A stretch of DNA of 64,000 bases from positions 58,455 through 122,454 of the forward strand of contig JAFRIV010000039.1 in assembly GCA_017432615.1 (NCBI GenBank), read 5' to 3'. The notes beneath the pieces were generated by a model. That model was not told the DNA's origin. It made no database searches and was given only the letters and a program-made list of their open reading frames with translations. Origin of the DNA: Oscillospiraceae bacterium. Its GTDB lineage: Bacteria; Bacillota; Clostridia; Oscillospirales; Oscillospiraceae. Positions 61,948-64,000 of this stretch are shown piece by piece. The position numbers and the translations under genes were made by a program. The first letter of the stretch is position 1. Every line of letters starts with the position of its first letter.

Positions 61948-63072
61948 TCAGCGATACTTCTTTACACAGCTTTTTACGATGGCGTCCATCGCATCCAACT
62001 TGGTCTGCATATCTTTGGCCAGCGCCACCTGGCATCTGGTACGGATCAGGTTGTGCTTTGCCCGCTTTACTTTAAAATATTTATCGCCGATGAGATAATC
62101 GTCCAGAAAACGGGTGGCAAGCTCACAGGTTATCGCAAAGCAGCTCAGTGCCAGCGTATCCACTTCCTCCTCGGTGAGCATCTTCGCCGTCTCGCTTAAA
62201 AACCCGTCCGCAAAGGCGAAAAAGATATTCAGATCGACCCCTGTTTTTGTGGTGTCTTCCGCATCTTCCTCCGTAAAATTGGCGGCAAAACGGATCCCGT
62301 CGCCAAAATCGTGGCCTACCAGGCCGGGCATGACCGTATCGAGGTCGATTACGACGAGAGGCTCATGGGTCTTTTCATCAAACAGGACGTTGTTGATCTT
62401 GGTATCATTGTGGGTAACACGCAGCGGAAGCTTTCCCTCGTTGTAAAGATCCGTCAGGCGGCATGCCTGCTGCTGAACCGAAAACAGATAATCCAGTTCC
62501 GCTCTTACCTCGGCAACTCTTCCGCAGGGATCGGCGTTGGCATCGGCAATCAGCTTTTCATACCGTTTCCGTGTGTCATGGAAGTCCGGAATGGTATAAA
62601 ACAGCTGGGAGACATCGAAATCGCTGAGCACCATCTGAAAATCGCCGAAAGCCTTCCCGGCCCTGCGCACGATCAGCGGATCGTCACATTTATTGACGGT
62701 CTCTGCCGCAATATACTTGTAAATACGCCAGAAACTGTCTCCCTCTTCCAGATAGGTCTTCCGCTCCCCCGTCACATCCGTGTGATGGAAGTGCATACAG
62801 GTTTTATCCGGCCGCTTGGTACGAATAAATTCTGTGACCCGGTCGATATTGCTCATCAGTTCATCGGGGTTATGAAACGCATAGGAATTAATCTTCTGCA
62901 CAAGATACGGTTTGATAACCGCCATGCCTGTTCCGTCATCACTGATATAATTCACTTTATAAGTACGGTTGACATTGCCGTTTAAGATCTCTTCATAAGA
63001 AAAGAATGGCCCGGGAAGATGAAATGCCTTCCCCACCTGCTGCAGCTTTCTCGCTGTGGCCTGATCCATCAT
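61948..63072 (-). CDS. nahK: Sugar 1-kinase, APH fold (N-acetylhexosamine 1-kinase-like)
   Basis: A 374-residue aminoglycoside-phosphotransferase-fold kinase. The catalytic loop is RVTHNDTKINNVLFD, with the metal Asp in VIDLDTVMPGLVGHDFGDGIR, a pattern shared with bifidobacterial N-acetylhexosamine 1-kinase. It would make GlcNAc-1-P or GalNAc-1-P, precursor of the UDP sugar used by the downstream dehydratase (gap 2 bp), so kinase and dehydratase form a plausible two-gene pathway. The initial MMDQ leaves the exact start within two codons. A consensus promoter overlapped by a palindrome precedes it. Substrate is inferred from similarity. Confidence 0.85.
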   Translation of the reverse strand: MMDQATARKLQQVGKAFHLPGPFFSYEEILNGNVNRTYKVNYISDDGTGMAVIKPYLVQKINSYAFHNPDELMSNIDRVTEFIRTKRPDKTCMHFHHTDVTGERKTYLEEGDSFWRIYKYIAAETVNKCDDPLIVRRAGKAFGDFQMVLSDFDVSQLFYTIPDFHDTRKRYEKLIADANADPCGRVAEVRAELDYLFSVQQQACRLTDLYNEGKLPLRVTHNDTKINNVLFDEKTHEPLVVIDLDTVMPGLVGHDFGDGIRFAANFTEEDAEDTTKTGVDLNIFFAFADGFLSETAKMLTEEEVDTLALSCFAITCELATRFLDDYLIGDKYFKVKRAKHNLIRTRCQVALAKDMQTKLDAMDAIVKSCVKKYR

Positions 63073-63122: not shown

Positions 63123-63151
63123 ATCATACAACGTTGCCTGACAATTGTCAA
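63123..63151 (-). promoter_or_regulatory. Promoter of the sugar kinase-dehydratase operon
   Basis: On the minus strand, TTGACA (63151-63146), a 17-bp spacer and TATGAT (63128-63123). Confidence 0.82.
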
Positions 63152-63186: not shown

Positions 63187-63218
63187 CGGGAGGCGGCCAA
63201 AAACCGTCTCCCGTTTTT
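63187..63218 (+). terminator. Plus-strand intrinsic terminator with no plus-strand gene in front
   Basis: A 10-bp stem (63187-63196 with 63204-63213, one G-T) then TTTTT. All adjacent genes run on the minus strand, so it would stop antisense or unannotated plus-strand RNA. Confidence 0.65.
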
Positions 63219-63266
63219 CTATCTTTTGACAGTTTACATTATACAGGATTTTAGCCTGAATGCAAT

Positions 63267-63326
63267 CTATAACATTCCTATAGTTTCACTATAATCAGAC
63301 TATAAATGAACTATAACCCAACTATA
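63267..63326. repeat. Six 11-bp-spaced CTATA repeats (iteron-like array)
   Basis: CTATA starts at 63267, 63278, 63289, 63300, 63311 and 63322, with an exact 11-bp step each time. On the minus strand each reads (T/C)TATAG-N5 or TTATAG-like. The array begins inside the last codons of the DUF1492 gene and runs past its stop. One helical turn per unit would put all copies on one DNA face. Confidence 0.88.
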
Positions 63327-63730
63327 AATTTTTCAAGATTGGCCAATGCCTCCCTGTGGATCTGGTAAACCCGTTGTTCCGTAACTTCTTTTTTTAAGGA
63401 AATGGCATCCCAGGATAACTCTTCGATATACCGCATGCGAAGCACTTCCTGCTGGTCCCGGTCTTTCAATTTGCTGATCGTCATTATGATATTGATTTTC
63501 ATCTGCGCCAGATGCTTCACTTTTTCCTCCAGTTCCTTTTCTGCTTCCGTGATACTCAGCATCACGTTTTCAAAGGAATCCTTGTTTTTGGAAGGGTTGC
63601 ATCCTGCCGTAACGCTGAGATGCGTGGTACACTGTTCCACGACAGACCGCATGGCCGCGATATTGTCCTGATCCGCCAGGATCTCCTGTTTCAGTTTTCC
63701 CGGTCTTTCCAGATACTCTTTACCCGTCAT
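63311..63730 (-). CDS. DUF1492/sigma-like phage-type regulator
   Basis: A 139-residue protein typical of prophage and mobile element control genes. Residues 1-85 are a coiled helical region (EYLERPGKLKQEILADQDNIAAMR, EAEKELEEKVKHLAQMK). Residues 90-138 contain a sigma-70 region-4-like helix-turn-helix (DRDQQEVLRMRYIEELSWDAISLKKEVTEQRVYQIHREAL in parts). AAGAGAG precedes the ATG. It is preceded by two tiny overlapping ORFs, and its 3' end carries the 11-bp repeat array, which may be its own binding target. Confidence 0.8.
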   Translation of the reverse strand: MTGKEYLERPGKLKQEILADQDNIAAMRSVVEQCTTHLSVTAGCNPSKNKDSFENVMLSITEAEKELEEKVKHLAQMKINIIMTISKLKDRDQQEVLRMRYIEELSWDAISLKKEVTEQRVYQIHREALANLEKFIVGL

Positions 63731-63794
63731 TCTCTCTTCCCTTTTCCGGATCCTTCCGCCTGGCCGGCACGCTTTTGGTCTCTTTCGGCGTCAT
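63720..63794 (-). CDS. Tiny ORF coupled between phage-type genes
   Basis: 24 codons (MTPKETKSVPARRKDPEKGREN-) starting in the ATGA of the previous ORF and ending inside the DUF1492 gene start. Highly basic. The double overlap is typical of compact phage operons, but coding is unproven. Confidence 0.4.
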   Translation of the reverse strand: MTPKETKSVPARRKDPEKGRENDG

Positions 63795-63883
63795 TCCTCA
63801 TCCTCCAGCAGCATCTTCCCCCGGCTGGATCCCGGCGTGATCTTTGTCAGTTGCTGCAGGCCCAGCGAATTCCACGCCTCCAT
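63791..63883 (-). pseudogene. C-terminal remnant of a phage replication-type protein
   Basis: A 30-codon stretch (EAWNSLGLQQLTKITPGSS, then RGKMLLEDEE and stop) resembling the C-terminal WN-x-L...KIT...R-x-K-M-L motif of phage replisome organiser proteins. The upstream part of such a gene is missing: just before it lie the tandem hairpins and then a sugar-kinase fragment. It is therefore a broken gene fused to foreign sequence. Confidence 0.45.
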
Positions 63884-64000
63884 CACGCGTCGGACGTCCT
63901 TCGTCCGACATACAGTACCTTCAGGTACTGTACCCCCTCGGCGGCGAGCAGCCCCTCCGCGCCGAGGCTGACGAAAACGCGCTTCACGCCCGCCGCGAGC
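63883..64000 (-). pseudogene. Fragment of a PfkB-family sugar kinase running into the palindromic repeat
   Basis: The minus-strand frame entering from the window edge reads LAAGVKRVFVSLGAEGLLAAEG. This is the VSLG-x-x-G strand-loop near the C-terminal third of 1-phosphofructokinase/tagatose-6-phosphate kinase-type PfkB proteins, which is normally followed by the catalytic GAGD region. Here the frame passes straight into the tandem hairpins and ends 16 codons later without GAGD. The segment is markedly more GC-rich than the rest of the window. Confidence 0.55.
63889..63932. repeat. Two adjacent perfect hairpins (intergenic palindromic repeat)
   Basis: GTCGGACG/CGTCCGAC (63889-63896 with 63902-63909, loop 5) is followed at once by TACAGTACC/GGTACTGTA (63911-63919 with 63924-63932, loop 4). 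Only one base separates them. Such paired palindromes are typical of dispersed REP/MITE-like elements. Confidence 0.85.

Follow-up and report, generated by a model that had tools for sequence, protein, structure and literature searches.

A phased TATAG array at the end of a DUF1492 gene appears to work like the operator of an Ltr-type phage late promoter

The Ltr superfamily was reportedly defined by Quiles-Puchalt in 2013. As described in a study of S. aureus phage phi13 (PMC13123087), the gene for Ltr (family IV, LtrC homologues) lies directly upstream of promoter P23, and late-promoter activity needs both Ltr and a set of repeats at the gene's 3′ end; binding was inferred. The same text describes Alt of Lactococcus phage TP901-1 as a late activator that binds four imperfect direct repeats from −76 to −32 (PMC13123087). 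In phage T4, according to a further source (PMC6755090), the MotA/AsiA system uses a phage protein site centered near −30 that takes the place of the −35 box, next to a good −10 box.

Here we describe a repeat array in a bacterial draft genome (2.4 Mb, 87% complete) that shares features with these systems. Its setting resembles that of phi13 Ltr and P23, where a regulator gene likewise stands upstream of the promoter and endonuclease and terminase genes lie downstream (PMC13123087). The repeats themselves differ, with three 18-bp units and a partial one in the published phi13 text (PMC13123087) as opposed to six 5-bp cores spaced at 11 bp here. The contrast with phi13 extends to the regulator, which belongs to the DUF1492 family, to the 10-bp spacing of most array-bearing relatives, and to the late genes, which are missing from our locus. 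Alt can be likened to the array by description only, as a late activator binding direct repeats, and MotA by analogy only; the source describes a single box, whereas our locus combines an array with a sigma-region-4-like helix-turn-helix (HTH).

The array (63267..63326, minus strand) was found in a 64,000-nt stretch of DNA, hereafter the window. On the plus strand, CTATA cores begin at 63267, 63278, 63289, 63300, 63311 and 63322, a step of exactly 11 bp; read on the minus strand, the array is TATAG-N6. Scanning all 5-mers at periods of 8-14, we found three runs of at least four units in the window: one comprises six, and the other two, of four each, are the same array in another register. No phased 5-mer run of at least four units appeared in 60 simulated first-order Markov windows. 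The positions and simulations bear out the claim of an earlier note on this DNA that six TATAG-type repeats stand in exact 11-bp phase. The overlap that it described with the end of the DUF1492 gene and its 3′ flank was likewise confirmed, as two units of the six fall within the gene, whose TAG stop codon belongs to one unit.

The 6-bp cores on the minus strand read TTATAG five times and CTATAG once. Pairwise identity is 94% among the six cores and 24% among the five 5-bp fills, a pattern that makes tandem duplication unlikely in appearance and argues for selection on the cores. An in-phase, promoter-proximal seventh unit, TTCAG (63256..63260, minus strand), is degenerate, with two mismatches, and was assigned from its register. 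A four-unit pattern allowing up to two mismatches matched no place in the source genome (87% complete) other than this array. The exact array pattern occurred in 1 of the 199 genomes searched, the window's own, and was absent from the other 198.

The gene that ends in the array (63311..63730, minus strand) encodes a 139-aa DUF1492/ArpU-type regulator with a C-terminal sigma-70 region-4-like HTH, as assigned from Pfam and PHROG. Its Pfam matches are DUF1492 (1.7e-8; 35 bits, above the curated cut-off of 21.5) and Sigma70_r4 (4.9e-7); DUF1492 is still labelled a protein of unknown function in Pfam. The protein also matches phrog_36, a phage transcriptional regulator family (3e-20), and weakly resembles the Q-like family phrog_79 (E 0.024). 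With a pI of 6.0, 21 K+R and 23 D+E, it is not basic and thus lacks a trait of Ltr. Five relatives were found in Ruminococcaceae/Oscillospiraceae assemblies, two of them from roe deer omasum and goat duodenum by assembly title, and no relative turned up in IMG/VR when either the window protein or alignment A2 served as the query.

To place the array in context, we gathered 294 DUF1492 loci, two of which were lost for want of a usable hit or stop (L236, L387). Enough flank was present at 283 loci, and 149 were kept after dropping flanks more than 75% identical. In the region of the stop codon, 10-bp matches were strongly over-represented at these 149 non-redundant loci compared to 6852 control stretches (z 16.2). 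Matches at 20 bp were in clear excess too (z 11.8) and those at 11 bp only slightly (z 3.1); the excesses at 8 bp (z 7.5) and 5 bp (z 6.0) were smaller than that at 10 bp. Among the seven periods from 8 to 14, 10 bp was best in 104/149 loci. Arrays at empirical p≤0.01 (300 shuffles for loci, 100 for control stretches) were present at 47/149 loci vs 9/298 control stretches, counts that are not independent because the loci come from related phages. These 47 comprise 44 at 10 bp, two at 11 bp (the window included) and one at 9 bp; the other 102 gene ends carried no array at this threshold. We also drew 12 phage records, six chosen from 60 listed out of 80 matching records and six from another 14. 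At p≤0.05, the best period was 10 in five of them (L429, L430, L431, L432, L437), while it was 11 in two (Faecalibacterium phage Aster and Lactiplantibacillus phage H1-Guo) and 8 in one (phiRM10). No periodic array at p≤0.05 was found in the remaining four, namely TPDSL_ph1, FP_Lugh and two uncultured phages.

The recurrence of arrays at DUF1492 gene ends supports the earlier suggestion of phased binding sites, with the qualification that neither the TATAG core nor the 11-bp step proved to be general. The search proposed in that note, for TATAG-N6 at 11-bp spacing, gave no DUF1492 neighbors in 79 IMG/VR loci and matched no other genome of the 199. Since the cores at other DUF1492 loci are different and mostly spaced at 10 bp, such a search finds no DUF1492 neighbors, and taken at face value it would have led us to discard the array idea wrongly. 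We rejected the literal TATAG-N6 pattern as a unit of homology: a DUF1492 gene was detected in 0/79 of the IMG/VR stretches (tblastn, E 1e-4), and on inspection many of these stretches proved to be simple tandem repeats.

On the minus strand, the DUF1492 gene ends within the array, which is followed by the seventh unit and then by a TATAAT box (63238..63243, minus strand). This −10 hexamer, identified by comparison with loci L404 and L414, has a TG that abuts it without the usual one-base gap, and the promoter scan found no TTGACA-like −35 partner for it. It forms part of a promoter/start segment, TATAATGTAAACTGTCAAAA (63224..63243, minus strand), that is common to other loci of the genus. A plain promoter scan found two pairs where shuffles give 0.8, and placed a 9-of-12 pair inside the array (63328-63299). 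Across the survey, a model of the extended −10 box (TRTGnTATnAT) that had been fitted to these 149 loci themselves scored above 5 at 123/149 loci vs 16/149 shuffled. Upstream of this box, 6-bp units stand at fixed distances, starting at about −52, −42 and −32, with the numbering relative to the start site derived from the −10 box. Unit scores of at least 12 of 18 were obtained at 81/122 loci vs 1/122 in the same windows 60 bp upstream. In the window, both the TGn and the unit closest to the promoter are degenerate; the model misplaced the window's own −10 inside the array, and we assigned it from L404 and L414 instead.

The promoter segment TATAMTGTAAACTGTCARAA, with up to one mismatch, occurs at five sites in 3/102 genomes of the genus. 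Of six promoter-segment sites tested, three have significant 11-bp arrays (the window, L404 and L414), and three have the segment with no 11-bp array (L402 and L418 at up to one mismatch, L421 at two). The cores differ between these 11-bp loci (TATAG in the window, CCCCTT in L404, TCAGG in L414), and the unit distance from the TATA box, with the register fixed to within one base, is −28, −27 and −28, respectively. Because the 11-bp promoter motif was derived from the window and L404, L414 is the sole independent case among four further sites. At up to two mismatches, the segment was found at 26 places in 16/199 genomes, compared with 11 places for a reversed control pattern, and most of the 26 read as unrelated. 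Two matches were found in IMG/VR, none with DUF1492. Among the phages, Aster (core GTCAGT) and H1-Guo carry 11-bp arrays. The 11-bp spacing is a minority lattice and is not confined to the window. Separately, we observed that L423 (G087:C7:28500-40500) contains two tandem DUF1492-like HTH pieces with the same promoter segment after each; the two sites are 530 bp apart, and an 11-bp array accompanies the second only.

The earlier note had proposed the adjacent HTH protein as the candidate ligand, and covariation between core and protein supports this proposal. Cores vary by locus (TGAGAG, TGTCAC, TGATAC, TGTCC, TGAGC, TGCAAC, GTTCC, CCGGAC and others), and their identity tracks the recognition helix. 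When the 139 columns of the protein are ranked by the information that they hold on the core, E118 and Q119 come first (residues numbered as in the window protein). Y122, I124, R126 and T117 rank in the top ten as well, together with four columns beyond the helix (I82, S52, L105 and N131). With the rest of the protein held constant, operator similarity correlates with the helix (partial rho 0.32, 0/500 permutations), while its correlation with the rest given the helix is 0.05. Nearest-neighbor prediction of the operator reached 0.74 from the helix and 0.62 from the rest, compared to 0.49 for all pairs. As the core follows the recognition helix, the DUF1492 protein is the likely ligand of the array. 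We note that this evidence is strong but not independent, having come from 99 related loci that were chosen for recognizable units and from which the window was left out.

Downstream of the promoter, some relatives have an HNH endonuclease and the small terminase (TerS), and others have HNH. TerS and TerL follow the promoter in one phage without a significant array, and the 11-bp relative L422 has a virion structural protein downstream. The downstream ORFs of L331 and L337 belong to a family of unknown function and to endolysins, not to packaging genes, and those of Javan630 are hypothetical proteins and a SAM synthetase. In the named phages, the regulator lies between replication-type and packaging genes. 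In the window, no phage late, packaging or structural gene follows the array, in which it departs from Ltr; in their place is a gene for an APH/choline-kinase-like phosphotransferase (61948..63072, minus strand; Pfam APH 1.1e-11). This gene is preceded by an ordinary promoter-like pair, TTGACA-17-TATGAT (63123..63151, minus strand), returned by the promoter scan. An 84% identical relative occurs in genome G001, next to genes that we take to be ysxC, lon and clpX; synteny with G001 does not explain the junction.

The contig ends at 64000, 270 bp upstream of the DUF1492 start, and cuts off the upstream gene cluster. The upstream ORF fragment (63791..64000, minus strand), truncated by this end, is possibly a phage gene. 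Across 41 aa it shares 71% identity with an ORF at L090, another locus of the genus that carries DUF1492; an in-frame palindromic stretch makes up part of this match. The fragment has no Pfam or PHROG family above cut-off. The palindromic stretch itself (CGTCGGACGTCCTTCGTCCGAC plus flank, 63887-63932) encodes TVCRTKDVRR, which occurs again in L090. A 46-bp piece of it is 91% identical at G000:C14:62087-62132 in the same genome, and a stricter 31-base search found no second copy; the stretch resembles a small element that has inserted into a coding region. Because late genes are absent from the contig, the regulator and array are probably what is left of a prophage; an assembly join is the other possibility. 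Given this absence and a regulator that is not basic, we describe the array as working in the manner of an Ltr-type operator at a phage late promoter and not as a proven member of that group.

Between the −10 box and the phosphotransferase gene lies a leader hairpin, CGGGAG..CTCCCG (63187..63213), and the folding z-score of the sense leader is −4.1. Only the plus strand has the T tract that gives the hairpin its terminator-like character. A good intrinsic-terminator match at 63187-63213 also points to the plus strand. Sense terminator-like hairpins were found in 82/117 DUF1492 leaders vs 16/117 antisense and 5/117 control stretches, directly after the late promoter in L124 and L129, for example, and with a loop motif like GGAGnAATC in 37/117. 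Of the other 11-bp leaders, that of L404 folds well and that of L414 does not (z −0.35). Rfam gave no match up to E 1 at eight relatives' loci. The leader hairpin could act as a terminator, form part of a packaging site, or do both.

Our preferred reading, which we consider probable, is that the array serves as operator for a phage-type late promoter that DUF1492 would activate via the host RNA polymerase. In this model, DUF1492 protein made from the gene ending inside the array would bind one TATAG unit per helical turn, on one DNA face, through its sigma-region-4-like HTH, and the bound copies would line up toward a −10 box that has no −35 box. The promoter-nearest copies would occupy about −40 and −30, the seat of sigma region 4 or T4 MotA, and would recruit or hold host RNA polymerase so that the (late) genes downstream are transcribed. 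What we infer here is that the protein binds, that each unit takes one copy, that transcription is activated, and where the units stand relative to the start site.

We weighed other roles for the same elements. DUF1492 loaded at the array and −10 box might act as a Q-like antiterminator, carrying polymerase past the leader hairpin before the late genes, and the excess of sense hairpins and the phrog_79 resemblance point this way. We judge this to be quite unlikely, since the window's sense hairpin is without a T tract, only one of the two other 11-bp leaders folds well, the hairpin could belong to the packaging region instead, and the published Ltr data are described as activation (PMC13123087). 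The main job of the operator might instead be autorepression or timing, with DUF1492 blocking or tuning the promoter, and protein bound where the array overlaps the gene end could hinder transcription through it. Here the placement of the units upstream of the −10 box and not over it, the lack of a −35-like partner for TATAAT in our scan, and the activation reported for phi13 Ltr (PMC13123087) make such a role very unlikely in our view.

The earlier note had spoken of a control or replication element. The −10 box and the relatives' downstream genes favor control, and we found no evidence for replication. Replication or partition iterons bound by another protein are alike in general form as short phased direct repeats; we give them almost no credence, as the core follows the DUF1492 recognition helix, the units keep a fixed distance to the −10 box, and the regulator in named phages sits between the replication-type and the packaging genes. 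Beyond the late-promoter operator that we favor, DUF1492 proteins as a family might be modular sigma-region-4-like activators, arranged along a single face of the DNA on a 10- or 11-bp lattice, with a simple helix-core code readable from sequence. Once loaded at the promoter, they may in addition take polymerase past a conserved terminator in the leader, as a Q-like antitermination in Gram-positive phages; we hold this broader formulation to be unlikely.

The arrangement and the dependence on repeats are established for phi13 Ltr (PMC13123087). In the papers open to our literature search, we found no DUF1492 units phased at 10 or 11 bp, no helix-core covariation and no 11-bp form. New here are the 11-bp spacing variant and the helix-operator code, part of which may already be in print. 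With these results, DUF1492 gains a likely job and a promoter architecture recognizable in the sequence by itself. The helix-to-operator code is open to test by operator exchange, and the presence of 10-bp and 11-bp lattices in one family raises the question of how strict protein-protein geometry on DNA must be.
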